Origin: Neocallimastix lanati (nom. inval.)
Lineage: Eukaryota > Neocallimastigomycota > Neocallimastigomycetes > Neocallimastigales > Neocallimastigaceae
Direction of reading: 5' to 3'
Length of the DNA stretch: 29,295 bases
Assembly (NCBI GenBank): GCA_016946835.1
Contig: JACVTC010000436.1
Location: 1-29,295, forward strand
The position numbers were made by a program, and so were the translations under genes. Shown piece after piece: positions 2,534 to 29,295 of this stretch (the stretch's first letter is position 1; every line of letters starts with the position of its first letter). The notes below the pieces were generated by a model. That model made no database searches. It saw only the letters and a list, made by a program, of their open reading frames with translations, and was not told where the DNA came from.

Positions 2534-3492
2534 ATGTGCAAAAATTTAAGTCAATTTAAAATAATCAAATTGGAGGGATTTAACAACCTAATAAGAAGAT
2601 TCGAAGACCTTAACCTGCAAGAAATGAATCAAGAGAATCATCAAGTTCTGCCCCGTAACAATCAAAAGATTGTTAACGAACCACCGCTATTTTCTGGAAT
2701 CAAGAAGGACTTTGATGGCTTCCTTACAAGAGCTGAAATAGCTATGGAAGCCAATCCACAAGGTTTCAATAACGACCATACAAAGGTCAGATTTATAATT
2801 TCTTATCTTGTCGGTGATCCCTTGATATGGGCCTCAAACTTGCGAAGAAATAATGATCCCCTGCTCAATGTTTATGAAGATTTTATTCAAGAATTAAGAA
2901 ATCAATTTGGAGAGCAGGACATGAGCACAGTTGTCGCAAACGGTAAATTATGCAGCATCCGACAACATAAATTTGGTCATGTTAGTGAGTATATAAATGA
3001 ATTTAATAAAATCAGCAGACATTCAGATTTTAACGATTCTGCTAAGATTTATATGTTGTAAAAGGACTTCACTACAAGATGAGGGAGCACCTTGCAGTGG
3101 TAAATCCAAATCCCAACAACTTAAGAAGACTTTTCACTGATGTCCTTAGTATCGAAAGCTTAACTAAGAGACATGAAATAAATGAATTTTTCTATCATAA
3201 TTATTACCATCGTAAGAAAATAAATAATAATAATCATGCGTCTACTAGTGACCCAATGGAAATAGATTTATACAGAATTAAGAGAGGACAAACGAATACA
3301 AGTTACTTCCCTTCTAACCAGAAATTATATCAAGAAAACTCGAATTCAAGAGATGAAGAAAGAAGGAAAGGATTGTGCTATTATTGTAAAAAACCAGGTC
3401 ATCGCTATTTTAACTGTCCAAATAAGAAGAAACCTGCCGGAGTCAAGATTATCAGTAAAACAAGAAAACACCGCTACCACACCCTCAAGTAG
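2534..3492 (+). pseudogene. gag: Element A gag (frameshifted)
   Basis: Structural Gag polyprotein that would form the particle and bind the genomic RNA. The first frame (2534-3061, 175 codons) holds the capsid region, with FSGIKKDFDGFLTRAEIAM and LVGDPLIWASNL typical of a Ty3-type retrotransposon Gag. One missing base near 3057 creates a TAA. The next frame continues the protein (MREHLAVVNP from 3079) and ends with a CCHC zinc knuckle, CYYCKKPGHRYFNC (Cys100, Cys103, His108, Cys113 of that segment). The start at 2534 is the first ATG of the frame after the leader. The tail after the knuckle probably changes frame again, because another frame stays open through 3574 up to the protease. No substitution stop is visible, so the break may be an assembly error. 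Confidence 0.85.
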
Positions 3493-3570
3493 TTTAAGAA
3501 GAATTAGAAGAATCAACAGCCAAGAAGATATTGTCAAAGTTAGAAAAATCGTGGAAGAACAAAACTCACT

Positions 3571-4080
3571 TTGACAAAGAAAAGTAATATCATTGATTTC
3601 TATATTAAAACAAACGATACAGAAGAAGTAAAAGCAAGAGTTTTGATTGATTCTGGATCAGATCTTAACTTTATTCACCCAGAATTTGCGAAGGCTTTTG
3701 GAATCAAAACCCAACAAATTGAAGAACCATTCCGTGTTACTGGTCTTGGTTACGGAATATCAACAGTTAAAAAGGAAACGGAGAAGTGCATTTTCCGTTT
3801 AAAAAATCACTTAGAAACCATTCAATTGTATGTACTCAGAATTCCTGATGTTGATATTATTTTAGGCCTACCTTGGATTGAGAAGCATTCGCCTTATAAT
3901 TACCACGACGCAAAGAAGATCTCCTTTGGCTCAGGATTTTGCGCTAGACACTGTAATAACGGTAAAAGAAAAAGAAAGAACAAGATCAAGAACAAGAAAA
4001 AGAACAAAGGAAAAGAATCTGCTACCGACTTGGAAGAAAATAAAATTATTGAAGACTCAAGAAAAAGAAAATCTTCTTTG
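3571..4080 (+). pseudogene. pol: Element A protease (retropepsin) domain of pol
   Basis: Aspartic protease that would cleave Gag and Pol inside the particle. The active-site motif is VLIDSGSDLNFI, and the second conserved block is DIILGLPWIEKHSP, as in Ty3/gypsy elements. It is open from 3571, where the frame overlaps the stop of the preceding frame by 4 bases; the first codon is not a real start, as this is an internal Pol domain. A Lys/Arg-rich stretch follows (about 3960-4070). The frame then changes near 4074, after which an acidic Asp/Ser-rich linker is read. Confidence 0.85.
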
Positions 4081-5407
4081 ACTCCGATTCCGAATCTGAT
4101 TCTGAAGAAGAAATTTCTATTCGTGGCCGCCGAACTCGTATTAGAACTTGTACTGAATTTATTAATAGTGATAGTGATAGTGATATTAATGATACTTTTA
4201 TGTTAGATAATTTTAGTGATAGCATTAGTGATAGTGATAACTTTAGCGATAGTGATGATATTATTGTTATGAATTGTGATAGTAAAATTAGTACTAATAG
4301 TTTAAGGATTTTAAAGAAAATTTGTGAATCTAGTAAATGTAAGAAATTAAATGTAATTGAAAAATGTAATGATGAAGATAATAATTTAAATAAAGATGGT
4401 GAAAAGGTCGAAGTACCTGAAATCTATTTGATGTTTAAAGAAGTGTTTAATGAAAATAATTGTAATGTGTTACCTCCGCATCGTAATTATGATTGTGAAA
4501 TTAAATTAAAAGATAATTGTAGTCTATTTTATGGTCCGTTGTACCCTTTAACTGAAACGGAGAGAGAAGAATTAAAGAAATATTTAGAAGAGAATTTAAA
4601 AAGGGTTTTATTAGGAAATCTTCTTCTCCTGCTGGTGCACCTATTTTATTTGTTAGAAAAAAGGATGGTACTTATAGACTAGTTATTGATTATAGAAAAT
4701 TGAACGAAATGACCATCCGTAACTCTTATCCACTTCCTTTAATTAGTGAATTGTTGGATAGAGTTAAAGGTGCTAAATATTTTACTAAGTTAGATTTAAA
4801 ATCTGCTTATAACTTAGTAAGAATTAAAGAAGGTGACGAGTACAAAACTGCCTTTCGTACAAGATACGGGCACTTTGAATATCTCGTTATGCCTTTTGGG
4901 CTTAAGAATGCCCCTGCTACATTCCAACATTTTATAAATGATGTTCTCAGTGATTACTTAGATGATTTTGTAATCTCTTACATTGATGACATTTTAATTT
5001 ATTCTAATACTTTAGAAGAACATCATGTACATGTTAAGAAAGTTTTAAGAAAATTGTTAGAGAATCATTTAGTTGTTAAATTAGAAAAGTGTGAATTTGA
5101 TGTAACTGAAACTACCTTTCTTGGTTATGTTTTATCAAGAGATGGAATTAAAATGGATAAGAAAAAGTTAAAGCAATTTTAGATTGGCCTGTTCCAACAA
5201 ACGTTAAAGAAATTCAATCGTTTATTGGACTTTGTAATTATTACAGAATTTTTATTAAAGACTTTGCGAAAATTGCAAATCCTCTCCACAAATTAACTAG
5301 AAAAAATGTTCCTTTTAATTGGAGTTCTGAACAACAAAAAGCGTTTGATACTTTAAAAGAATTATTTACTACTGCTCCTATTTTGAAACATCCTGATAGC
5401 AACAAAC
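4074..5407 (+). pseudogene. pol: Element A reverse transcriptase domain of pol (three frames)
   Basis: RNA-directed DNA polymerase. An Asp/Ser-rich linker (4074-4290, imperfect GATAGT repeats) leads into RT. Frame changes fall near 4605 and 5165, each in a short A run, and near 5424. Key parts survive across the breaks: the [11 protein letters not shown] block, [22 protein letters not shown] (first catalytic Asp), [13 protein letters not shown], and [10 protein letters not shown] (the YIDD pair, codons at about 4985-4990). The connection to RNaseH (IQSFIGLCNYYRIF, PLHKLTR) is read at 5183-5407. Lengths and block order match an ordinary Ty3/gypsy RT. Confidence 0.88.
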
Positions 5408-5413
5408 AATTCA

Positions 5414-6567
5414 TTGTTGAAAACTGATGCTAGTAATTTTGCTGTTGGTGCAATTCTTTCTCAGGAATTTGATGGGCATTTGCATCCAATTGCTTTTATT
5501 TCTACTAGCTTAACTAAATCCCAAAGAAATTACCCTATCTATGACAAAGAACTTCTTGCTATTAAAGTTGCATTGGAAGGATGGAGACATTACTTAGAAG
5601 GAGCTCGCCATCAGTTTATTATTTATACTGATCATAAGAATTTAACTTTCCCTCGAAAACCTGAACTTCTTTCCCAACGCCAAATTCGTTGGTATGAATT
5701 CTTATCTAGATTTGATTTTAAACTAATTTACAGAGCTGGTAAAAAGTCAGGTAAACCAGATATTTTATCAAGACGTAGTGATCATTTATTTGCTAGTGTT
5801 CGTCCTATTTCATGCGTTATTAATTCATGTAGTTTTAAGAATGATTCTTTAATCTCCTCTATTCATGATTCTCTAGCTAATGATGAATTCTATTGCAAAA
5901 TAACTGAATTTCTTAAAAATGATAAATCAAAAGATCCCCCTTTTAGTAAAATCGATAAATTTTCTCTTGACAAAAATGGTTATTTACTTTTTGAAAATTT
6001 AATTTATGTTCCCAATAAAATTAGAATAAGAGTTTTAGAACTCCATCATGACTCTATTTCTGCTGGTCATTTTGGAATTAATAAAACTATTGAACTTATT
6101 TCTCGTAATTTCTGGTGGCCTAAATTACAAAAAGATGTTAAAATGTTTATTAAATCTTGTGAAATTTGTTCAAAATCCAAAATCCCAAGACATAAGCCAT
6201 ATGGTTTACTTTCTCCACTTTCTACACCAAATAGAGCCTGGTCTGCTATCTCTATGGATTTTATTGTTGAACTTCCGAAATCCAAAGATATGACCACTAT
6301 AATGGTTGTTGTGGATCGCTTAACTAAAATGGCTCATTTTATACCATTTAGATGTCTTCCTACTGCTTCTATTGCTGCTGATTCTTTCATTGCTAATATT
6401 TTTAAACTTCATGGTTTCCCCGATTCTATTATTTCTGATCGTGGTTCTCAATTTACCTCTGATTTTTGGAATCGTCTTTGCTCTCTTTTAAATATTAAGC
6501 ATTCTTTTTCTACTGCTAATCACCCGCAGACTGATGGTCAAACGGAGAGGGTGAACTCGATATTGAA
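5414..6567 (+). pseudogene. pol: Element A RNaseH and integrase core
   Basis: RNaseH would remove template RNA and make the plus-strand primer; integrase would join the cDNA to the genome. In the segment starting at 5414, RNaseH acidic residues are Asp5 (TDASNF), Glu46 (DKELLAI), Asp73 (TDHKNL) and Asp116 (KPDILSR). Integrase has the zinc-binding pattern His212, His219, Cys249, Cys252 and the catalytic triad Asp282, Asp342, Glu378, with 35 residues between the last two (DD35E). All catalytic residues are present. The frame is lost near 6565, just after TERVNSIL, where one G appears to be missing. Confidence 0.9.
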
Positions 6568-6954
6568 CAATATCTTCGTTGTTTCATTAACGAAAAACAA
6601 AATAATTGGTTTGATTTATTACCTTTTGCAGAATTTTCCTATAATAATACTTTACAACAGTCAATAAATCAATCACCTTTTTTTGCAAATTATGGTTTTA
6701 ATCCGAAATTTAATCCTGAAATTCCTTCAAATGAGAATCCGCATAGAGCTGAGAAAAGAATATTAAATATTAATGAAAACATTAAATTTTTAAAAGAAAA
6801 CTTAGAGCAAGCAAAAAAGACTTATAAGAAATATGCAGATCTGAAAAGAATGGATTCTCCAGATTTTAAAGTAGGAAATAAAGTTTATCTTTTAAAGGGT
6901 AATACAACAAAGAAAAATAGAAAATTATCTGATCAACTAATAGGACCTTTGAAA
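6568..6954 (+). pseudogene. pol: Element A integrase C-terminal region
   Basis: Continuation of integrase in another frame. It reads on with the usual helix after the catalytic Glu (NNWFDLLPFAEFSYNN, SPFFANYGFNP) and a C-terminal part (FKVGNKVYLLKGN, KLSDQLIGP) that matches the GPY/F-type module of Ty3/gypsy integrases. The frame ends near 6947, where one T of a short run appears to be missing before the GPF motif. No stop is met before that. Confidence 0.8.
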
Positions 6955-7392: not shown

Positions 7393-7426
7393 AATCTCGC
7401 AGGAGCTCGACTTAAGGGGCGAGATT
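7393..7426 (+). other. Element A polypurine tract inside a perfect 8-bp hairpin
   Basis: The plus-strand primer site AAGGGGCGAGA lies directly before the 3' LTR. The arms AATCTCGC (7393-7400) and GCGAGATT (7419-7426) pair perfectly, with the purine tract in the loop and right arm, and the last base is the first base of the LTR. Confidence 0.7.
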
Positions 7427-8198
7427 GTAAAGATATTATTAATATCTTTATAAATTTTAATTAAATTTAATCATAAATTTAAGTAAAATTGAAATAAATC
7501 TATTAAAAATCACGTGTATAAAATTATTGCAAATAATTTTAAACAAAACTTCGACTTCTTCCCAATCATATTAATAAATTAAAAATTTCTCTTGTGAAAC
7601 TAGTAATTGAAAATCATTTCTTTTTATGTAATTTAATTTAAATAATAAGAGTTAAGGTTTTTTACAAGATAAATTAACAACATGAAACTATGCAATTAGT
7701 CATGTTGAAACTTACGGCATTTTATGCTAAATTTATATTAAATAATTATGACAACTTTTATATTATTTTAAAATAGAAAATATATAATAAATTTACTAAT
7801 AATATTTAAATAATAAATAAATAATAAATGAACTCAATTAGAATTGATTATATTTATTTTAGTTATTAATTATAATTCTCTTTATTTAGTAATAGTTAAT
7901 TATTTATTATTAGTTTAGGTTAGTATTGTTTTTAAATAAATAGTTAGATAATATAATTCAATAGGAATTATATATTCTAAATGTAATAAGATAAAAATAT
8001 AAATAGTTAACCAAATTTCATGTATTTTAATCGATGTAATTGTTATTAACGATTTATTGTTAATAACACTAATAATTAATAAAGATTATTTTAAAATCTA
8101 AATATAATAAAACTTATTTGTTTATAAAACATTTTTGTGTTATTTAGTGTTATTATAATTTTTGACTTATAATCTATTTTTTAAATCAAAACTTTATA
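7426..8198 (+). repeat. Element A 3' LTR (773 bp)
   Basis: Copy of 1426-2194 with four extra single bases, each in a homopolymer (two A, two T). It carries the same opening palindrome and TATA box, and is followed by target copy ATCAT and palindrome unit 8. Confidence 0.93.
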
Positions 8199-8207
8199 AT
8201 CATATGG

Positions 8208-16470: not shown

Positions 16471-16486
16471 GTCACGTATCAAATAT

Positions 16487-17247
16487 TGACAAACGATTCT
16501 ATTATCTTAATTTGAAGTTATTACTTCAAAAGTGATAATAGATGTATCAAGTTTGAATTAATATAAATTTAATATAAATGAATTTATGTTATTATTATTA
16601 ATAATTAAGTTATTATTATTCTAGCTTAACACTGAATTGTTATTAATTTTTCAAAATTATACATTTCTTTTGTGTTTAGAATTAATTTTTATTATTATAT
16701 TTATTAATTTTTATTATTATATTTATTAATTTTTTTTATTATTATTTATTAATTTTTATTATTATTTATTATTATAATATTTGGTTATTATTTTTTTTAT
16801 TACATTTCTAATAACAACGAGAAATTAATTTTATAAAATATTTACAAGTATTTATATTTTTACAATAATTTAAAGTATTTACAATTTTTAATAATAAAAT
16901 AATTAAGAATAATTATATTTATAAAAATAAACAATAAAATAAACAAATAAACAATTAATACAAGAATTATTATAAACAAAGAATTCAAAATAATAAAAAA
17001 AAAGAGAAAATTGTTTACAAACTATTTACTTTTAATTAAAAAGAGAAATTAATTAACATTAATATTTCATTATTTTAAAAATTAAAATAGAATTAAAGTA
17101 TAATTTCGAGTTTTAGAATTTAATTAAAATAAATTTTTTTATTATGATTTTAATTTCAAATTTTAATTTATTAATTTGTTGTTGAATAGGTTAGATATTA
17201 TTCAAGCTTTCTAATAATTTTATGCTTAAGAATTCCAATCTGTATCA
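16487..17247 (-). repeat. Element C 3' LTR (left copy on plus strand)
   Basis: 761 of 761 bases match 22665-23425 on line-by-line reading. On the plus strand it begins TGACAAACG and ends CTGTATCA. It contains the hairpin described for the other copy, here at 16498-16542. Confidence 0.95.
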
Positions 17248-17288
17248 ATTCGTCGGCCCTTAAGAGATGACTTCGTCCCTTGAAGTCA
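17248..17288 (-). other. Element C polypurine tract with upstream perfect hairpin
   Basis: On the minus strand the purine-rich CTTAAGGGCCGACGA precedes the 3' LTR. It shares CTTAAGGG and CGA with the tract of element A. Just upstream, plus-strand TGACTTC (17268-17274) and GAAGTCA (17282-17288) form a perfect 7-bp stem with a 7-nt loop, inside the last codons of pol. Confidence 0.7.
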
Positions 17289-20200
17289 AAGAATTTTCTT
17301 GAAGTACATATGGAAAAACATTTTTAATATGAACATTTCTATTTAAGAGTTTTCCAGTAGTTGGATCTTCTAATACTAAGGTATTGAATTTTTGTTTATT
17401 AACAACTTTAAAAGGTCCGTAAAAGTAAGGATTTAATTTACTTCTTCCTATAAGTCTTATCATTACGTAATCTCCTGGTTTATATTTCTTCTTTAGTGCA
17501 TTTTGAAATCCAATACGGTGTTCCCAATATTTATTTGCATATTCTGAATATTCAGTAGCCTGTTTTACCCAATTTTGATGTCTTAAGAAACGTCGAAATA
17601 TATATTCTTCTTCTGATTCATTTGGATCTTTATAAATATCGGGGAACATGACTTCTAATGGCCAAGTGTCGTGTCTGCCATAAAGTAATTCGAAACTACT
17701 AAATTTTGTTTTTGAATTTTTAGTAGTTCTTAAGGCCCATAAAGCCGATGGAAGATATTCATCCCATTCAGACTCATTTTCTACTAATAATCTTAATAAC
17801 TTCCCTATTTCTCTGTTTCGATTCTCAATCATTCCATTCGATTCAGGATGATGCGGGGAAACGTAATGAACCCATGAACCATAAAGGTCAATCATCATCT
17901 TTGTTACTTCAGAGATAAAGGAACTACCATTGTCGGTAATTATTATTTCAGGTGGTCCATGTCTTGTAAATATTTCAACAAGAAATTTTATTACTTCTTC
18001 GGATTTCATGTTCGGGATTGCTTTAGCTTCAACCCACTTGGTAAAATAATCGACTAAGGTTATTATATAATTGTTACCATTTTTAGTAGTTGGTAACGGT
18101 CCTATTATATCGAGTCCTACTCTAGTAAATGGTTGTTCAACAGGGGTAGCATTATCTCCAGAACTTTTTGGAAATGGTTTAGGCCTGCATGTTTGACATT
18201 TGTGACAACTTTTTATCCACATTCTTACATCATTCCAAATGCCAGGCCAATAGTAAGATTGCATAATTCTATTAGTAGTTTTCTCTGCTCCTTCATGTCC
18301 TACTAAATGGGCACGATTAATAATATCCTTTTTGTCTTCATCTTTATAGATGACTTTTAAATAAAGATCATCTTTTTTATAATATAGAGTATTATCAACA
18401 ACTTGATAATTCTTAGTGAAGTATTTTATTATACCTTCTGGTAGATCCAAATCCCTTGGATTAAAGTCGGCTAATATTGCATTAGCGCATTGAATAATTC
18501 CTTTTGAATTTTTAGAAGGTAATCTTGATAACGCATCAGTGAATACATTTTTCTTTCCTTTCTCGTAAATAAGTTCAATCTTATATTTGTTAAATTCTTC
18601 TATCCATCTTGCATGACGATTAGAAGTAGGAATGCTTTTTTTGAAAAACCCAAGTAATGGTTTATGATCCGTAATAAATTTTGTTAAATTTTTATTGCTT
18701 AATATATATTGACTAAAATATTTTAAACTAAATATAACAGCTAATCCTTCTAAGTCCGTTACGGAGTAATTCTTTTCAGATGTAGAGAGTGTTCTACTTA
18801 CGCAACAGATAGGATGTTCAAGACTATCCTCTTCCTTCTGTAAAAGAACACCACCAATACCTTTAAGAGAAGCATCAGTACGAATGATGAATTCCTTTTT
18901 AAAATCTGGGTAACTTAATATTGGATCATTAAGTAAACATTCTTTAATATTTTCGAAAGCTTCTTCGCATTCATTTGACCATATATATTTTGAATTCTTT
19001 TTTAATAACTTAAAAAGAGGGTCAGCAATAATTGAGAAATTTTGAATAAATTTTCTATAATAACTAGCTAAACCTAAAAAAGAACGAAGTTCACTTACAT
19101 CTTTAGGATTGTCCCACAAAGCAATACTTTGTACTTTTGATGGAATTGTTTTTAATCCTTTTGATGTTAGAACATGACCTAATACTTCAACACTTTCTTG
19201 AAAGAATTTACATTTTTGTAAGTTAAGAGAAAGATTGTATTTAGAAAATATTTCAAAAGCTAACTTTAAATGTTTAAGATGTTCATCAAGAGTTCTTGAA
19301 TAAATTACAATATCATCTAAGTAAACAAATAAACATTTACCGATTAAAGGAAGTAATATTCTATTCATCTCCCGTTGGAAGGTAGCGGGAGCATTGGTAA
19401 GGCCAAATGGCATTACTTTAAAATTGTAATTGCCGAATTTTGTGGTAAATGCTGTTTTCTCTATATCTTCTGGATTCATTGGAATTTGATGATATCCAGA
19501 ATATAAGTCTAATGCGGAGAATACCGTCGCACCATTTACTGAATAAATTAGTTCATCTATAAATGGTAGTGCGTAAGAATCTTTTATAGTAATTTCATTT
19601 AATTTGCGATAATCAATACACATTCTCCATTTCCCATTTTTCTTTTGAACTAATAGAACAGGAAAAGACCATGGAGAATGTGAAGGAACTATAAGTCCTT
19701 TTTCTAATAGTTTAATTATTTCCGATTTAAGAATATCTGCATGCTCTTTTGATAATTTGTATGGTTTTAATTTTATAGGTTTATTACTAATTGTCACAAT
19801 TGAATGTGGTTCTAAATTAGCTGTACTTAATTGTGACATTGAAGTTGCCATACAGTTTTTATACTTCTCAATTAAATTTTTAAATTCTGTCTTAAATTTT
19901 TCCGGGACAGATTCAATAATTTTATTTAATGTATCGATGAACTCTTGTTGTTCATCTTTTTCTATAATAATGGAATTAACAAGAGGTATTTCTGATTTAC
20001 TATTAATTATATAAGTTACTTGTTTAATTCCTTTCTTAATTTTCTGGTAGACAGCATCATCATCTGGATCTATATACAAACGATACTTTTTCTGAATTCC
20101 TCTACCAAATATAATTTCAAAATATGGATTCGTATAATTAATTACATAGAATTTTTCTGTAATAGTTAATCTATTATTTACGTTTATTTTTAATTCAATG

Positions 20201-21030
20201 TAACTATTTGTAGTTACTTTAGTACCATCCACAATGGTAATATCTTCTAAATTTTCACATTGTTTAATTACTTTATGTTTTAGTTTGCCTAGACAATTAT
20301 TTGTTATAACATTAACGTTTGTACCGGTATCGTATAAGATTTTAAATGTCTTATTATCTATTTCACCACAAATAATAGGAAGACTTGTATTAGTTAAGGA
20401 ACAAAGAATTTTCTCAACTCTTGGTTTACAACCTTGTTCAAGTTCTTTTCTAATGGACGGACTTGCAGATAATAATTGAGATAAACTAATTTTTGGAAAA
20501 AGGTTATTAGCTTCTTCAGTTATACTAAACTTTTCATTTTCATTTAACATTTGGATATTGGTCATTTTTCTTTTCTTAATAGTTTTTGGTTTTTCTGATT
20601 CTTTTTCATTATTACTTTCAATATATGAGGCTCCATTAATCTCATTTTCATTGCTATTTTCTTCTTCATTAACTTCCATCACTATATCATCACTAGTATT
20701 TGGTTCATTTTCTTCAGAATTGCTAAGCTTTCTTCTTCTAGCATCTTTAATTACTTTCTTTTGTTGTTTTACTAATTTTGTTTTGGGTTCACTTAATAAT
20801 GAAGGCTTTACTATAGATTTGTTATTTAATTTTCTTGTCGAAGTTTTTCTCTTTTGTACTGTACCGATAAAGTTTGAAGAATTTCTTTCAATATTACTTT
20901 CTTCTTTAGTGAAATTTTCTTTGTCATTTTCACTTCTTTCGAAATTATTTTCATTTTCATTTTCATTTTCATTTTCATTTGCAATTTTAATTGTCCTGGG
21001 AGATTGCGTACTCCCGATTATTAATTTAAA
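17260..21030 (-). CDS. pol: Element C Pol: protease, RT, RNaseH, integrase (read by -1 frameshift)
   Basis: The frame is open from 21045 and is entered from gag at 21030 by a -1 shift, adding about 116 residues of polar, Glu/Asn-rich linker; a GTG-initiated reading would start at 20682. Numbering from 20682: protease DTG at 118-120 and EIIFGRG near 189; RT about 303-545 with Asp392 (ALDLYSG), MPFGLTNAPATFQ and YLDD 454-457; RNaseH Asp603, Glu645, Asp672, Asp716; integrase zinc motif His792, His796, Cys826, Cys829 and catalytic Asp858, Asp917, Glu953 (DD35E); GPF module near 1089. There is no chromodomain, and the stop lies in the polypurine region. A full-length Ty3/gypsy Pol with no missing residue: it would process Gag, copy the RNA and integrate the cDNA. 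Confidence 0.97.
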   Translation of the reverse strand, partial: FKLIIGSTQSPRTIKIANENENENENENNFERSENDKENFTKEESNIERNSSNFIGTVQKRKTSTRKLNNKSIVKPSLLSEPKTKLVKQQKKVIKDARRRKLSNSEENEPNTSDDIVMEVNEEENSNENEINGASYIESNNEKESEKPKTIKKRKMTNIQMLNENEKFSITEEANNLFPKISLSQLLSASPSIRKELEQGCKPRVEKILCSLTNTSLPIICGEIDNKTFKILYDTGTNVNVITNNCLGKLKHKVIKQCENLEDITIVDGTKVTTNSYIELKINVNNRLTITEKFYVINYTNPYFEIIFGRGIQKKYRLYIDPDDDAVYQKIKKGIKQVTYIINSKSEIPLVNSIIIEKDEQQEFIDTLNKIIESVPEKFKTEFKNLIEKYKNCMATSMSQLSTANLEPHSIVTISNKPIKLKPYKLSKEHADILKSEIIKLLEKGLIVPSHSPWSFPVLLVQKKNGKWRMCIDYRKLNEITIKDSYALPFIDELIYSVNGATVFSALDLYSGYHQIPMNPEDIEKTAFTTKFGNYNFKVMPFGLTNAPATFQREMNRILLPLIGKCLFVYLDDIVIYSRTLDEHLKHLKLAFEIFSKYNLSLNLQKCKFFQESVEVLGHVLTSKGLKTIPSKVQSIALWDNPKDVSELRSFLGLASYYRKFIQNFSIIADPLFKLLKKNSKYIWSNECEEAFENIKECLLNDPILSYPDFKKEFIIRTDASLKGIGGVLLQKEEDSLEHPICCVSRTLSTSEKNYSVTDLEGLAVIFSLKYFSQYILSNKNLTKFITDHKPLLGFFKKSIPTSNRHARWIEEFNKYKIELIYEKGKKNVFTDALSRLPSKNSKGIIQCANAILADFNPRDLDLPEGIIKYFTKNYQVVDNTLYYKKDDLYLKVIYKDEDKKDIINRAHLVGHEGAEKTTNRIMQSYYWPGIWNDVRMWIKSCHKCQTCRPKPFPKSSGDNATPVEQPFTRVGLDIIGPLPTTKNGNNYIITLVDYFTKWVEAKAIPNMKSEEVIKFLVEIFTRHGPPEIIITDNGSSFISEVTKMMIDLYGSWVHYVSPHHPESNGMIENRNREIGKLLRLLVENESEWDEYLPSALWALRTTKNSKTKFSSFELLYGRHDTWPLEVMFPDIYKDPNESEEEYIFRRFLRHQNWVKQATEYSEYANKYWEHRIGFQNALKKKYKPGDYVMIRLIGRSKLNPYFYGPFKVVNKQKFNTLVLEDPTTGKLLNRNVHIKNVFPYVLQENSLTSRDEVIS
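20950..20979. repeat. Hexanucleotide repeat TTTTCA in the Gag-Pol linker
   Basis: About five copies of the hexamer encode an Asn-Glu dipeptide run on the minus strand just after the frameshift site. The hexamer length keeps the frame open. Confidence 0.85.
20981..21030 (-). other. Element C -1 frameshift signal: slippery heptamer and predicted pseudoknot
   Basis: On the minus strand, TTTAAAT (21030-21024) lies in the phase X XXY YYZ of gag (T TTA AAT), directly before the gag TAA (21023-21021). After an 8-nt spacer, GGGAG (21015-21011) pairs with CTCCC (21002-20998) around an 8-nt loop. GCAAT in that loop (21007-21003) is complementary to ATTGC at 20985-20981. This gives an H-type pseudoknot with loops of 3, 0 and 12 nt. 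A -1 shift leads straight into the open pol frame. Slippery heptamer plus pseudoknot is the known design of -1 frameshifting in retroviruses and coronaviruses. Confidence 0.85.
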
Positions 21031-21995
21031 TGGCTTTCGTCGTTTTCAGGGCAATCATTCATTTTGTGACCAATTCGTTTACATTGTACACAAAAATTTA
21101 TTTTTAATTGTTCTAATTTTTTTGTAATGTCATCTAAATCTTCTATTGTTGATTGAGGGTACCTTAAAGTGTTCATTCTATGTTCAATTCCTTTGTTTAT
21201 TTCTTCTCTTGATTGCATTTTATACCTATTATTTCTTATATTGTTATTATAGTTATCATTATGTTTATTTTTATTATCGTAACGATTATAATTATTATTA
21301 TTGTTGTTATATTGCTTATTATTCGATCTGGAATTTGAAGTTGAAAAATAATCATTTCTATAATTATAATTGTTATAATTATTATTATAATTTTTAGATT
21401 CATTGAAATCTTTTATTTCTTTCTTGTTAACTCCGTGTAATTTTTTATATTTATTTTTATTTTCTTCCATTAAAGCAATAATTTTTCCTTTCTTGGATGT
21501 TATTTTCATTGCATCCTGAAGTGAGGTTGGTTCCTCTTCTAATAAGGCTTCATAAATTTTACCCCAATTCTTAAAAGCATTAATATAATATGAAGTGATA
21601 ACTTGGTCACTAATTTCTAAATTCACTTGATTACACAGGGTATTGAATCTTACATCAAATTCAGAAATTCTTTCCCCTTTTTTAATAGTGACTGTAGATA
21701 ATTCCAATAATCTGGCATTTTTAGAGGTAGAGACTCTGAAATGTCCTCTTAATTTATTTATTATAGTTTTGTAACTATCTGGTGCTTCTTTGTTTAATGA
21801 ATTGAATACAATGGTTCTCGCTATATCTGTAGTTAAGGAGATTAAGTATTCAATTTTATCTTCTTCTTCTTCTATTTTATTAGCTTTACACCAGCGTTCA
21901 TACGAAAAATGCCATTCCTCAAAGGAAACCTTATCCTTCCCTAATATAGGTAACCTATTAAAGGTTATTGCCTTGGTTGAATTTTCCATTATCAT
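21021..21995 (-). CDS. gag: Element C Gag
   Basis: Intact 324-residue structural protein that would form the particle and package the RNA. Residues about 20-180 form the capsid-type region (FEEWHFSYERWCKANK, LRGHFRVSTSKNARLLEL, ISEFDVRFNTLCNQV). Residues 198-258 are an Asn/Tyr/Arg-rich low-complexity linker. A CCHC knuckle sits at Cys302, Cys305, His310, Cys315. The protein ends 9 residues later at TAA 21021-21023. The first ATG at 21995 is followed by a second two codons on, and either could start. Pol lies in the -1 frame and overlaps the last 25 bases. The end of the ORF is shaped by the frameshift signal listed above. Confidence 0.96.
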   Translation of the reverse strand: MIMENSTKAITFNRLPILGKDKVSFEEWHFSYERWCKANKIEEEEDKIEYLISLTTDIARTIVFNSLNKEAPDSYKTIINKLRGHFRVSTSKNARLLELSTVTIKKGERISEFDVRFNTLCNQVNLEISDQVITSYYINAFKNWGKIYEALLEEEPTSLQDAMKITSKKGKIIALMEENKNKYKKLHGVNKKEIKDFNESKNYNNNYNNYNYRNDYFSTSNSRSNNKQYNNNNNNYNRYDNKNKHNDNYNNNIRNNRYKMQSREEINKGIEHRMNTLRYPQSTIEDLDDITKKLEQLKINFCVQCKRIGHKMNDCPENDESHLN

Positions 21996-22662: not shown

Positions 22663-22664
22663 AT

Positions 22665-23425
22665 TGACAAACGATTCTATTATCTTAATTTGAAGTTATT
22701 ACTTCAAAAGTGATAATAGATGTATCAAGTTTGAATTAATATAAATTTAATATAAATGAATTTATGTTATTATTATTAATAATTAAGTTATTATTATTCT
22801 AGCTTAACACTGAATTGTTATTAATTTTTCAAAATTATACATTTCTTTTGTGTTTAGAATTAATTTTTATTATTATATTTATTAATTTTTATTATTATAT
22901 TTATTAATTTTTTTTATTATTATTTATTAATTTTTATTATTATTTATTATTATAATATTTGGTTATTATTTTTTTTATTACATTTCTAATAACAACGAGA
23001 AATTAATTTTATAAAATATTTACAAGTATTTATATTTTTACAATAATTTAAAGTATTTACAATTTTTAATAATAAAATAATTAAGAATAATTATATTTAT
23101 AAAAATAAACAATAAAATAAACAAATAAACAATTAATACAAGAATTATTATAAACAAAGAATTCAAAATAATAAAAAAAAAGAGAAAATTGTTTACAAAC
23201 TATTTACTTTTAATTAAAAAGAGAAATTAATTAACATTAATATTTCATTATTTTAAAAATTAAAATAGAATTAAAGTATAATTTCGAGTTTTAGAATTTA
23301 ATTAAAATAAATTTTTTTATTATGATTTTAATTTCAAATTTTAATTTATTAATTTGTTGTTGAATAGGTTAGATATTATTCAAGCTTTCTAATAATTTTA
23401 TGCTTAAGAATTCCAATCTGTATCA
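22665..23425 (-). repeat. Element C 5' LTR (right copy on plus strand)
   Basis: Identical to 16487-17247. Near its PBS end a nested hairpin lies at 22676-22720: TCTATTATC pairs with GATAATAGA, and inside it TTTGAAGT pairs with ACTTCAAA around TATT, giving 17 pairs in all. Confidence 0.95.
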
Positions 23426-23428
23426 ATA

Positions 23429-25036: not shown

Positions 25037-25942
25037 ATGTCTACTAAAAGTACTTTAAGTTTTAAAGAATTAAAGAAAGAATTACGAGACATAGTGAAGC
25101 TTAGCAAGGACAATTTAGATATAAAGTCCTGGGCTACTGAATTAAAACTTTGGATCAAGATACAAGGTATCACAGATCCGGAAACAATATTTAATGCTTG
25201 TTTACTTACCAGCTCTGGTGAAGTACAACGCGTTATTGAAGATTTGGGAGAAGATAGTGATGATGAAAGTGATGATTCATCAGATGAAGAAGAAGATGAT
25301 GAAGAAGAAAATGTTGATGATGATAAATTTCCTTCTCTTGAAAAAATTATTTCAAGTCTTGAAAATTTTTACGGTATTAAAGAAGACCAAAATTTACTTC
25401 TTAAAGAACTTCGTGCAATGCGAATTAAAAGAAACGAAAAGATTAAAGACTTTAATGTAAGATATAGAACTTTGTACACTAAACTTGATAAAAAGAGAAG
25501 AAAGCGCATTGGTGTACTAGATTATATTGACTCTATTCAAAATAATTATGAAGCCTGGAAGAAATTATCCCTTAAAGATGATATAAGTATGGAGAAAGCT
25601 TTCAAAATTGCCGAGAAAGTAGATAGACTTTCTGTAAGGAACAATAATATTAATACCTATAATGTTAATAATTCCCAGCATAATCAAAATAATCAAAACA
25701 GTACTACTTCAAGACTTTATCCTAAAAGAAGAAACGAAACTTTCCAAACAAGTCAAACAAATAATAAACTGAAACCTCAAGATATTATAGAAGAATCAAC
25801 CCAGAAAATGAGAAATTTATCTGTTAAAACTTGCTTCTTCTGTAAGGAAGAAGGTCATTACTCATACTATTGCCCTCAATTAAATAAGATTATGGAAAAA
25901 AATAAAAAAGAAATATATTCCAAAAAGTCTTTAAACTTCTAA
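25037..25942 (+). CDS. gag: Element D Gag
   Basis: Intact 301-residue structural protein. Residues 31-70 (SWATELKLWIKIQGITDPET and on) and 98-200 (LENFYGIKEDQNLLLKEL, DFNVRYRTLYTKL) look like the two halves of a retrotransposon capsid. Between them sits a highly acidic insert, residues 72-96, almost all Asp, Glu and Ser. An Asn/Gln-rich linker covers about 202-225. The CCHC knuckle is Cys266, Cys269, His274, Cys279. ATG 25037 is the first start of the frame. The C-terminus, SLNF, encodes the slippery heptamer, and pol continues in the -1 frame. No internal break. Confidence 0.94.
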   Translation: MSTKSTLSFKELKKELRDIVKLSKDNLDIKSWATELKLWIKIQGITDPETIFNACLLTSSGEVQRVIEDLGEDSDDESDDSSDEEEDDEEENVDDDKFPSLEKIISSLENFYGIKEDQNLLLKELRAMRIKRNEKIKDFNVRYRTLYTKLDKKRRKRIGVLDYIDSIQNNYEAWKKLSLKDDISMEKAFKIAEKVDRLSVRNNNINTYNVNNSQHNQNNQNSTTSRLYPKRRNETFQTSQTNNKLKPQDIIEESTQKMRNLSVKTCFFCKEEGHYSYYCPQLNKIMEKNKKEIYSKKSLNF

Positions 25943-25982
25943 ATGGGAGCAGAAGCACTCCCAATGACAAAACAATAGCTTC
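25930..25982 (+). other. Element D -1 frameshift signal: slippery heptamer and predicted pseudoknot
   Basis: TTTAAAC (25930-25936) is in the phase T TTA AAC of gag, two codons before its TAA (25940-25942). After 8 nt, GGGAG (25945-25949) pairs with CTCCC (25958-25962); a flanking T-A pair can add a sixth. The loop is 8 nt. GAAGC in it (25952-25956) is complementary to GCTTC at 25978-25982. Pseudoknot loops would be 2, 1 and 15 nt. The -1 frame stays open into pol. UUUAAAC is the heptamer used by coronaviruses. Confidence 0.87.
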
Positions 25983-28041
25983 ATTAAATAATTTACAAAA
26001 TAATACTTTTACCAAGAATACCCCAATTGATAATAATTCCTTTAATAAAGAATCTGAAGAATCTGATTTTAGTGACACAACTGAAAGTGAGGATAATATC
26101 ATTATAAATGCTATAAAAAGAAAAATGAATGATAATAACAGCGAAAAGGAAGAAAATAATTCCAAGAAAGTACATAAAAGTTTAAAAGATAATCCACGTC
26201 CTTTCGCAACTCCTGCTTTAAGAAAGAAGAAAGAAAATGAGCTACATAATAAACCAAATAAAGTTTATAAAAATCAAATACTTCCTTCAATTTTAACTCA
26301 ACCAAATATTAACAAAGAAAAACAAAAAGAAAAGGAATTAAGAAATATAACAAGAGTAAGAGAAAGTAAAGAAGAAAACAACAATTATTCATCAAAAGGA
26401 AAGAAAAAAGTTGAATCTGAAGATATACTTGTAATCGATAATGAAATAGAAGATATAGAAATGAATAAAGATAATCAACAAAATAAAACTAATACTTTGG
26501 AAAAATTAATTTCAACAAAAACTAAAGAAACTAATAATGAAAATACTCAGTTAGTAAAAAGGAATATCAAAATGATGAATAATAAAGAACCTTACAATAT
26601 TATGGATGATTTAAATAATCTTAAATCCAGTATTACGATAGGTCAACTCTTGAATGCATGTCCGAAAATTCGTTCACAATTAACTCAAGGTTTAAAGTTA
26701 GAAAAATCTAAAATAATTGGAACTGTAGACAATGTAATAGCACGAACTTTATTAGTGAATAACTATGATCATAGCTACATAAGTAAAAGTAATGAAGTAG
26801 CCGAAGAAGACTTAGCAATGGTTGATGCAAGTGTTGACGGAGTACTAGGAAAACTTTTAATTGATTCTTGTAGTAACCTAAGCATCGTTACTAAGCAGTA
26901 TTTTGATAAATTACCTGGTGAATATGAAACAGTTGGAAAAAGTCGTGGAAGAATCCAACTAGCAACACAAGATGAAGAATACTCGGAAGGAATTATTGTT
27001 CAATTACCAGTAAAAATTAATAATTATGAATTTAATGCGGACTTTAGAATTATTGAGAAAGAAGACTCATTTTATGATATGTTAATAAACTTTAAAACTC
27101 AAATCGATCATTGTTTATTTATTCATCCGACCTTAAACAGTTTATGTAAACTTTTGTCAGAAAGTGAATACGAAGAAATAGCTAAAATAAATAATCAATA
27201 TTATGATGAAGAAAGTATAATTTGCACTATTAGAAAAGTTAAAGAAACGAATAATGAAAAGGAAATTATAAAGGAATTAACTCCAATGGAATTTATTGAG
27301 AGTGATGAATTTTTAAGTACCTTAAATAAAGATTATAAAGAACAAATTATTAAAATTCTCAAAGAAATGATTGACATAGTTGCCACTTCAACAGAAGAAC
27401 TAACTCCTTCTAAACTTTCACCACATAAGATCCGTTTGAAAGCAAATGCAAAGCCAGTAAAATTAAGAAGTTATAGGTTAACTAAATTAAAATCAGATAT
27501 CTTAAAAGAAGAACTTACAAAGCTTATTAAGAAAGGATTGATAGAACCATCCTGTTCAGAATGGTCATCTCCAGTAGTACTCATTCTAAAACACAATGGA
27601 AAGTGGCGCTTGTGTATTGACTACCGAAAAGTCAATGATATGACAGAAAAAGATTCTTATTCAGTTCCATATATAGATGAAATTTTTGATAGTCTCGGAG
27701 GATCTAAAATATTTACAACTCTTGATTTATTTTCTGGTTTTCACCAAATCTTAATGGATGAAGAAAGCGTTGAAGTAACCACTTTCACTACTAAGTTTGG
27801 AAATTATCAATTTAAGGTTATGCCTTTTGGACTTACTGGAGCTCCCTCAACCTTCCAAAGAGAAATGAATAAAATTTTATTCCCTTTTATTGGTGAATTT
27901 GTTTATGTATTTATTGATGATGTTTTGATCTATTCAAAAAGTATCGAAGAACATTTAATTCATATTAAACAAGTATTAGAAGTATTTAAAGAAAACAAGT
28001 TAAAAATTAATATTGAAAAGTGCCATTTTCTTTCAAACTGA
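25930..28041 (+). CDS. pol: Element D Pol, first part: linker, protease-like domain, RT
   Basis: Read by -1 frameshift from gag; an ATG in the frame lies at 26125 and is used for numbering. Residues 1-165 are a polar Lys/Glu/Asn-rich linker. QLLNACPKIRSQLTQG (174-189) matches a block in element C. The protease-like domain has LLIDSCSNLSIVT, with Asp247-Ser248-Cys249 in place of Asp-Ser-Gly, and MLINFKT where a Gly motif is expected. RT (about 440-638) has CIDYRKVND, Asp534 (TTLDLFSGFH), MPFGLTGAPSTFQ and IDD (Asp598, Asp599). The frame ends at 28041 because one extra T near 28027 shifts it; RT continues in the next entry. Confidence 0.92.
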   Translation, partial: FKLLNGSRSTPNDKTIASLNNLQNNTFTKNTPIDNNSFNKESEESDFSDTTESEDNIIINAIKRKMNDNNSEKEENNSKKVHKSLKDNPRPFATPALRKKKENELHNKPNKVYKNQILPSILTQPNINKEKQKEKELRNITRVRESKEENNNYSSKGKKKVESEDILVIDNEIEDIEMNKDNQQNKTNTLEKLISTKTKETNNENTQLVKRNIKMMNNKEPYNIMDDLNNLKSSITIGQLLNACPKIRSQLTQGLKLEKSKIIGTVDNVIARTLLVNNYDHSYISKSNEVAEEDLAMVDASVDGVLGKLLIDSCSNLSIVTKQYFDKLPGEYETVGKSRGRIQLATQDEEYSEGIIVQLPVKINNYEFNADFRIIEKEDSFYDMLINFKTQIDHCLFIHPTLNSLCKLLSESEYEEIAKINNQYYDEESIICTIRKVKETNNEKEIIKELTPMEFIESDEFLSTLNKDYKEQIIKILKEMIDIVATSTEELTPSKLSPHKIRLKANAKPVKLRSYRLTKLKSDILKEELTKLIKKGLIEPSCSEWSSPVVLILKHNGKWRLCIDYRKVNDMTEKDSYSVPYIDEIFDSLGGSKIFTTLDLFSGFHQILMDEESVEVTTFTTKFGNYQFKVMPFGLTGAPSTFQREMNKILFPFIGEFVYVFIDDVLIYSKSIEEHLIHIKQVLEVFKENKLKINIEKCHFLSN

Positions 28042-28231
28042 AGTTGATGTATTAGGTCACAAACTTACTACTAAAGGATTAAGTCCCATGGAAAGTAAAA
28101 TAATAGCTATTAAGAAGTGGGAAGCCCCTTCATCAATTCATGAATTAAGATCATTTCTAGGAGCAATAGGGTATTATCGTGACTTTATCCCTAAATATGC
28201 TCAAATTACCTCACCTTTATGTAAATATTGA
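28013..28231 (+). pseudogene. pol: Element D RT C-terminal part (frame 2)
   Basis: Continues RT after the single-base shift: FFQTEVDVLGHKLTTKGLSP, then ELRSFLGAIGYYRDFIPKYA, aligning with FFQESVEVLGHVLTSKGL and ELRSFLGLASYYRKFI of element C. It stops at TGA 28229-28231, where a second single-base change (a missing T near 28226) breaks the LLKK block. Confidence 0.85.
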
Positions 28232-28874
28232 AAAAGAATACTAAATATGAATGGAATAAAGAACAACAAGAAAGCTTTGAACTCCTAAAAGAAAAATTAA
28301 TCAATGCACCTATTCTAAAATTTCCGTCATTTGACAAACCTTTTATCATTAGAACTGATGCCTTCGTATAATGGGAATTGGTGGAGTTCTTTTACAAAAA
28401 GAAGAAGAAACCGGTATAGGGCAATCCAATACACTTTATAAGTAGAAGTTTGAAGAAAACTGAAAAGAATTATGGTATCACAGATTGGAAGGAACAGCTT
28501 TATTTTACTGTATGACTAAATTTAAATCTTATATTGAAGGAAATCCATTACCTACAACTATTTACACAGATCATAAACCATTAGTTGGTTTATTTAAGAA
28601 TAAAGAACCTTTGAATGCAAGGCAAACAAGATGGTGTCTAACCGCTAGTATGCTTGGAATTAATATAAAATATGAATCAGGCAAAAAGAATGTGTTAGCT
28701 GATGCTCTTTCAAGAATGAAAAGTAAGGAAGAGAGAAAGATATTATTAACAAAAATTACTAATGGAAATAATGAAGAATTATTATCTAAGGTTATAAAGG
28801 AATTTATTAATGAAAAGTTTACTGTTATGATGGTGAAGATTACTTTATCGACAATGGAAATTATAGAAAATTAA
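28232..28874 (+). pseudogene. pol: Element D RNaseH (several frames)
   Basis: RNaseH in at least three frames. FDKPFIIRTDA carries the first acidic residue (about 28355), followed by a frame change near 28365. GGVLLQKEEE is read to about 28410, with further changes near 28423 and 28475. The segment from 28485 is open to 28874 and holds EGTALFYCMTKF (Glu), YTDHKPLVGLF (Asp) and VLADALSRM (Asp). All four catalytic positions are present across the breaks. Each break is one base, mostly in short homopolymers. Confidence 0.8.
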
Positions 28875-29295
28875 TAACGGACGAAAATGAAAGGTTTAAA
28901 TTAATTTTAGAAGCTCATAATATTGGCCACGAAGGATATTACAAAACATATCAAGACTTAAGAAAAACTTTTATTGGAATCATATGATTAAAGATATCAA
29001 AGAATTGTTAGTAATTGTGAAAAATGCCAATTAAATCGTCCTCAACCATATCCAGAACCAACCGAAAACCATCCAACTAAAGTGGAGGGTCCCTTTGTGC
29101 ATTTAGGATTAGATATTATAGGACCGTTACCAAAAACAAGAAATAATAATCAATATATTATAGTAACTGTTGATTACTTTACCAAATGGGTTGAAGCCGA
29201 ACCCACTGAAAACATAACTTCCTCTGATATAATTAAATTTTTAATAAACGTTTTTGCAAGACATGGTGTACCTCAAGTTATTACTACTGATAATG
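28875..29295 (+). pseudogene. pol: Element D integrase N-terminus and start of core (cut by window end)
   Basis: The zinc-binding module reads AHNIGHEGYYKT (His, His) and NCEKCQLNRPQPYP (Cys, Cys), with one or two frame changes between them near 28975-29010. The core begins GLDIIGPLPKT (first catalytic Asp) and DYFTKWVEAEPTE, closely matching element C. The window ends inside TDN, the second catalytic Asp. The Glu and C-terminus are outside. Confidence 0.85.

Follow-up and report, generated by a model that had tools for sequence, protein, structure and literature searches.

According to the passages of PMC5009743 used here, U_UUA_AAC ranks with the heptamers most prone to shifting in tests with mammalian ribosomes, spacers of 5-9 nt are the subject of many frameshift studies, and most knotted stimulators by far are of the H-type. 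From a 2003 survey the same source reports that 28 of 51 animal elements have a -1 pol, often with classical heptamers, and that fungi display a less skewed mixture of +1 and -1 arrangements; it also describes frameshift pseudoknots in the mammalian genes PEG10 and Ma3, both derived from Ty3/gypsy elements. The present analysis concerns the gag-pol junction of long terminal repeat (LTR) retrotransposons of a Ty3/gypsy lineage in the gut fungus Neocallimastix lanati, and starts from two elements, called C and D, in a contig of 29,295 nucleotides (JACVTC010000436.1 of assembly GCA_016946835.1; the window). With a probability of about 0.82, based on sequence, this junction carries a -1 programmed ribosomal frameshift signal with an H-type pseudoknot.

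The gag open reading frame (ORF) of element D, which has gag homologues, lies on the plus strand (25037..25942) and codes for 301 amino acids, with a zinc knuckle (CFFCKEEGHYSYYC) close to the C-terminal end. It reaches the slippery heptamer TTTAAAC (25930..25936) in the zero frame T TTA AAC, in phase, as an earlier note on this DNA had claimed. Then follow an 8-nt spacer (TTCTAAAT, 25937..25944) holding the gag stop codon TAA (25940-25942), the 5′ strand of stem 1, GGGAG (25945..25949), an 8-nt loop (CAGAAGCA, 25950-25957), and the 3′ strand of stem 1, CTCCC (25958..25962). Loop bases 3-7, GAAGC (25952..25956), would pair with GCTTC at 25978..25982 to give stem 2, the 15-nt linker between the stems (25963..25977) corresponding to loop 3 of an H-type pseudoknot. 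The pol gene, in the -1 frame on the same strand (25930..28041), starts with FKLLNGSRSTPNDKTIAS and codes for a reverse transcriptase (RT) domain (Pfam); both frames are open across the junction. The G+C content of the window is 23%. A search with the Rfam covariance models gave no match to the element D junction at E up to 1.

Element C lies on the minus strand and repeats this organization. Its gag ORF (21021..21995) ends with SHLN and a stop codon, and the heptamer, here TTTAAAT (21030-21024), is followed by an 8-nt spacer (TAATAATC) and by stem 1 GGGAG/CTCCC with the loop TACGCAAT (20998..21015). The 5′ strand of stem 2, GCAAT, comprises loop bases 4-8 (21007-21003), and the 3′ strand, ATTGC, lies past a 12-nt linker (20985-20981). 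Neither gag nor the -1 pol frame is interrupted at the junction, and pol, open from the heptamer to its stop codon (17260..21030), codes for RT, RNase H, and integrase domains (Pfam), which is the Ty3/gypsy order. The only Rfam match to this junction is weak and unrelated (E 0.61; 16.3 bits, the cut-off being 50).

All the parts listed in the earlier note, i.e., the 8-nt spacer, GGGAG/CTCCC, and the 8-nt loop in both elements, and the second helix GAAGC/GCUUC in D and GCAAU/AUUGC in C, were located. Its description of the two pseudoknots as having the same geometry is correct for the spacer, stem 1, and the loop length, but only approximate as a whole, since the linkers are of 12 and 15 nt; in addition, the heptamers differ in their last base and stem 2 is shifted by one base within the loop.

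The proposed mechanism is as follows. Ribosomes translating gag would reach U_UUA_AAC, where stem 1, 8 nt downstream and knotted by the pairing of its loop with the pentamer past the linker, would block the mRNA entrance. A fraction of the ribosomes would then re-pair one base back, on UUU AAA, and translate pol as a Gag-Pol fusion, the remaining ones terminating at the gag stop codon inside the spacer. We infer that the RNA folds in this manner in the cell, that ribosomes shift on it, and that the ratio of Gag to Gag-Pol is under selection.

The search for further copies covered the whole genome (199 Mb in 762 contigs, the window being contig C375). The pattern TTTAAAY-(6-10)-GGGAG-(5-12)-CTCCC has 1106 matches (536 + 570), and the reversed pattern none (0 + 0). 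Although other lengths were allowed, a spacer of 8 and a loop of 8 nt were found in 99 of the 100 places listed, the exception being L033, which fits only with a spacer of 6 and a loop of 10 nt. The hairpin GGGAG-N8-CTCCC, a palindromic pattern counted once per strand, occurs at 1165 sites, and TTTAAAR-8-GGGAG-8-CTCCC has 27 matches; if nearly all of the 1106 sites are of the 8/8 type, some 97% of such hairpins follow a TTTAAAN heptamer. All 40 element D matches scored were 100% identical over 301 bases, so that many copies are recent duplicates and the independence of the evidence rests on families. In the viral_contigs scan, the full pattern was found in 53 stretches, with no RT-like motif within 4 kb downstream or up to the locus end, and the stretches inspected (L061, at a contig edge, aside) resemble chance or terminator-like hairpins; a scan of viral_contigs with element D pol revealed no relative among 33 pattern matches.

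In total, 98 occurrences were read, 96 in genomic loci (some places twice) and two in the window; they represent 36 distinct 75-nt junctions and, at 85% identity, 16 families, a 17th family, L109, having TTTAAAA. The heptamer TTTAAAC/T is in phase in all 36 junctions. In each of them gag enters U_UUA_AAY in frame, open for 36-502 codons within the loci read, and its stop codon lies 0 or 3 nt past the heptamer in 35 of them and 30 nt past it in L032. The -1 frame is open for merely 0-15 codons upstream of the heptamer, which, with the gag stop codon so near, means that the shift must occur at or close to the heptamer. Downstream, pol is open over the whole stretch read (at least 511 codons) in 26 of the 36 junctions, the best copies of the other 10 having stop codons at codons 11 to 507.

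Sampling by gag similarity, independent of stem 1, was confined to contigs covered by the pattern listing, which hold a minority of the gag matches, and revealed the full signal in 27 of 28 checkable places, many of them copies of D (11 of 12 and 16 of 16 complete gag ends, with the truncated C23:95999 excluded); one of the 11 has TTTAAAR, and the 28th place, C23:506350, keeps the inner GAG/CTC. Moreover, public gag proteins ending with Leu-Lys (P0197, P0145) led to the prediction of TTTAAAA or TTTAAAG for a family without TTTAAAY, and TTTAAAR-8-GGGAG-8-CTCCC was found at 19 of 19 gag ends of that family. A further set of gag matches is 57-59% identical to P0141, most of them having open frames of 386-444 amino acids, longer than in the other families (e.g., C35:243066 and C391:3145), and their junctions may differ; the C35:243066 copy is not among the places of a listing covering C35 that would show group-I loops (groups are defined below).

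Stem 1, GGGAG/CTCCC, is invariant among the families read. GGG accounts for 2.5% of 161 Gly codons and CCC for 7.4% of 243 Pro codons elsewhere in these pol genes, and both stand in stem 1; this use of rare codons and the gag-based sampling lessen the bias of having found the families by stem 1 itself. When the fourth pair was replaced (TTTAAAY-8-GGGBG-8-CVCCC), the genome gave no match. With only the inner GAG/CTC kept, there were 1153 matches (560 + 593) versus 35 (32 + 3) for the reversed pattern, pointing to few variants of the outer pairs, and L033 is one inner-GAG/CTC-only variant among the loci read. With only the outer GG/CC kept, 1603 matches (793 + 810) were found versus 70 (31 + 39) for the reversed pattern, about 500 beyond the exact signal (e.g., C1:3354, C1:505628, and C2:774682), and no such outer-only variant is present among the loci read. 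Stem 1 is fixed while other junction bases and stem 2 change freely, and other pairs would fold equally well, so its sequence is perhaps read as such, e.g., by a host factor or by the ribosome at the mRNA entrance. We regard such recognition as rather doubtful; were it true, the signal would be sequence-read as well as mechanical, and the families without stem 2 described below would have dropped it and would rely on stem 1.

Stem 2 is present in 13 of the 17 families, in five sequence versions. Group I (GAAGC/GCTTC) comprises D, L009, L016, L022, and L037, and also L109; group II (GCAAT/ATTGC) comprises C, identical with L020, together with L011, L012, and L136, in the last of which the helix is one pair longer. 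Group III (TGTACT/AGTACA) consists of L125 with L122 and L123, group IV (GAACGTT/AACGTTC) of L127 and its kin, and group V (AGTG/CACT) of L013 and L025. The remaining families, L010, L021, L038, and L113, have AAGG loops and no matching strand; further AAGG loops occur among the matches listed (AAGGATGA). In a pol tree of 19 rows, groups I, II, and III-V form separate clades (support 83/90, 100/100, and 100/99, respectively), V lying inside III, and three of the AAGG families cluster (96/98), L021 being unplaced. Groups V and III can be compared without gaps at the same coordinates: TGTACT/AGTACA becomes AGTGCT/AACACT, a T-A pair being replaced by A-T and an A-T pair by G-C with both sides changed, three pairs being kept, and C-G being broken to C-A.

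The match between loops and downstream strands was assessed in several ways. The mean duplex energy of a loop with the 30 nt downstream is -5.41 kcal/mol for own and -2.72 kcal/mol for swapped partners; in none of 20000 loop-downstream permutations over 16 families was the pairing as good as in the true matching, and with group means the true matching ranks first among 720. When the downstream piece was shuffled by composition, the 16-family mean was attained in 0 of 1000 cases. Synonymous resampling was based on the elements' own codon usage (7048 codons), with Fisher combination of group medians as an approximation. Resampling of both strands gives p values of 7.2e-6 (six groups) and 2.7e-4 (four deep clades), and resampling of the loop only 0.002 and 0.011, respectively. 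With codon usage taken only from the window, neither the downstream-only nor the both-strand variant attained the 16-family mean in any of 1000 cases, but the families are not independent.

Several observations weigh against a pseudoknot selected in this lineage or weaken the evidence for it. Since stem 1 never varies, it provides no covariation, and the genome counts consist mostly of recent copies. The approximately 500 extra TTTAAAY-8-GG-N14-CC sites could be unrelated repeats or real stem-1 variants. Stem 2 is just 4-7 bp long, its register differs by one base between C and D, and when only the downstream strand is resampled synonymously, p rises to 0.059 for six groups and 0.13 for four clades (0.05-0.42 per family). 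At the site of the 3′ strand, groups I and II both encode Ile-Ala-Ser/Asn, which makes this strand fairly likely given the loop. The root of the pol tree is weak (46/75), and the families within groups are related. At 150 nt, several families with stem 2 fall individually within the shuffles (e.g., C 0.30 and L136 0.15), and in the copies L128 (last loop base) and L026 (pol with stop codons) a pair is lost; L112 retains the pairing through G-U. Finally, in the four AAGG families no candidate for stem 2 exceeds chance, whether 30 or 150 nt are considered (p 0.26-0.85 at 150 nt).

This last group is the only one in which stem 2 is missing, the finding that the earlier note had named as telling against its own claim. 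It appears to work by the stem-1 hairpin alone or with another partner. In L113, AGGG/CCCT can pair about 26 nt further on, a pairing not beyond chance in shuffles (0.38 at 30 nt, 0.26 at 150 nt), although its both-strand synonymous p is 0.010. Stem 1 is extended to 7 bp in L010, to 9 bp in L021, and to 7 bp and more past a mismatch in L113. Such an extension is not a clear substitute for stem 2, as it occurs also in some families with stem 2 and is absent from L038.

The AAGG families, the weak downstream-only result (0.06 and 0.13), and the IAS/IAN peptide common to groups I and II would all suit an explanation in which the stem-1 hairpin alone stimulates frameshifting, stem 2 being a side effect of the residues that the families encode in common (Ser/Arg in the loop, Ile-Ala-Ser/Asn downstream). 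We consider it unlikely, because the both-strand and the loop-only nulls given above speak against it and so does the choice of codons. AGC accounts for 4.8% of 503 Ser codons, yet it is present in the representative junction of all five group-I families, and ACG, 6% of Thr codons, is used in the loops of C and L012 where stem 2 needs it. Moreover, groups III, IV, and V lack IAS/IAN, yet each has its own matching strand. Coding alone, then, does not explain stem 2, and the downstream strand by itself is not strong evidence; the argument of the earlier note that coding similarity is insufficient holds when both strands are resampled and not when only the downstream one is. The genome-wide geometry, the five matching versions of stem 2, and the codon choice support its broader claim that an RNA structure is under selection at the gag-pol junction.

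Two observations on individual families may be added. About 80 nt past stem 1, L022 carries, beside the usual GCTTC, a complement of the full 8-nt loop (TGCTTCCT vs AGGAAGCA) with an energy reached by 0 of 300 shuffles. L025 and L125 share 94% identity over the 900 nt preceding the junction and 74% over the 400 nt following it, and compared with L013 the identity is 83% upstream and 95% downstream. In L025, L013, L123, and L125, gag and pol have different histories, which suggests that the two modules were exchanged close to the frameshift site.

Among the relatives of the D and C proteins, those labelled with an organism are mostly of Orpinomyces, Neocallimastix, Anaeromyces, and Piromyces origin, and distant pol matches are found also in plants, other fungi, and an arachnid. 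A U UUA AAY heptamer implies that gag ends with Leu-Asn and at most one or two further residues. Such an end is present in 62 of 68 gag homologues in which the zinc knuckle lies close to the end (42 of 47 D-like, 20 of 21 C-like), a set that may include proteins of the window's own species, the first C-like one being the window's own protein. Among all homologues listed the figures are 44 of 60 D-like and 23 of 34 C-like (P0203 is a fortuitous match in a truncated protein). P0173 and P0179, the two homologues from named gut fungi with a knuckle near the end, do not end with Leu-Asn, which counts against the frameshift reading; their gene models are perhaps partial or bridge the junction. The gag-pol models P0020 of Orpinomyces (GRGSTPVVNKIAS) and P0178 of N. 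lanati (GSRSSPIVNKTAS) keep the junction peptide without its heptamer part, and the pol protein P0017 begins with MGSRCSPLNQNT, like group V. Taken together, these proteins provide hints, at the protein level, of the same signal in other species.

P0020 and P0178 join gag and pol minus part of the junction, as if spliced, and an ATG in frame with pol directly precedes stem 1 in group V and in part of group III. Expression of pol by splicing across the junction, internal initiation, or re-initiation is nevertheless very improbable. Gene finders tend to produce junction-skipping models when they join two frames, pol has no Met before codon 65 in D and codon 117 in C (zero-based), and none of these routes would need conservation of the heptamer phase, the spacer length, and the stop position. 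A frameshift junction may itself explain why these two models omit part of it in joining gag and pol. A role of the structure in, e.g., genomic RNA packaging or dimerization, with an incidental heptamer, is even harder to credit: the short palindromic versions of stem 2 (GTAC, AACGTT) could conceivably kiss between molecules, but the structure is linked with decoding by its near-constant 8-nt distance to an in-phase heptamer and by the gag stop codon that 35 of 36 junctions have inside the spacer.

As regards the surroundings of the two junctions, the LTRs of element C (16485-17249 and 22663-23427) are 765 bp long and 100% identical, which indicates a recent insertion. Element D shows no flanking LTR pair within the window, whose end cuts the element. 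Its pol drops out of frame near 28032, and pieces similar to RT/RNase H lie in other frames at 28032-29294 (tblastn), so that past 28041 the pol of this copy is broken in the RT/RNase H region. Another direct repeat of about 775 bp, 99.5% identical, is located at 1424-2196 and 7424-8200 and flanks broken Ty3/gypsy-like ORFs (2534-6667); these are presumably the LTRs of another element.

The junctions described here add the Ty3/gypsy elements of gut fungi to the lineages that appear to produce Gag-Pol by -1 frameshifting. They also form a natural series of more than 1000 copies in one genome: the slippery site and stem 1 are constant, and stem 2 takes five forms and is missing from one group, so that the contribution of the second helix can be asked about directly. 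No paper on gag-pol frameshifting in gut fungi was among those listed by full-text searches of an open-licence library; as far as these searches show, the statement of the earlier note that no description was known holds for the version of this lineage and not for the kind of signal, which is classical.

The closest counterparts are the H-type sites of coronaviruses and retroviruses, which, in the passages of PMC5009743 cited here, share with the gut-fungus signal an in-phase X_XXY_YYZ heptamer, a 5-9-nt spacer, a stem 1, a stem 2 between loop and downstream sequence, and an ORF in the -1 frame. The putative gut-fungus signal differs in its short stems (5 and 4-7 bp) and in having one stem-1 sequence in all families read. 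A -1 pol after a classical heptamer at the end of gag is likewise found in Ty3/gypsy and other LTR elements of the 2003 survey, as related in PMC5009743, the passages of which name no gut fungi; here, in contrast, several versions of the matching structure occur in one lineage and one genome. PEG10 and PNMA Ma3 also have a Ty3/gypsy-derived -1 site with a pseudoknot (PMC5009743), but these are domesticated mammalian genes and not multicopy elements. Tca2 of Candida albicans, as presented in the part of PMC2194720 consulted, is another fungal LTR element in which a pseudoknot may form 3′ of gag; stop-codon readthrough of the Tca2 type is ruled out in the present case, pol lying in the -1 frame rather than in that of gag. 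The gag-pol stem of the plant Sireviruses, again a conserved stem with covariant bases at an LTR element junction, is 11 bp long with a 4-nt loop, and no slippery heptamer is named for it in the passages of PMC5009743. The kind of signal is thus a classical one, and what is added here is the lineage, in which stem 1 stays constant and the second stems form a series.
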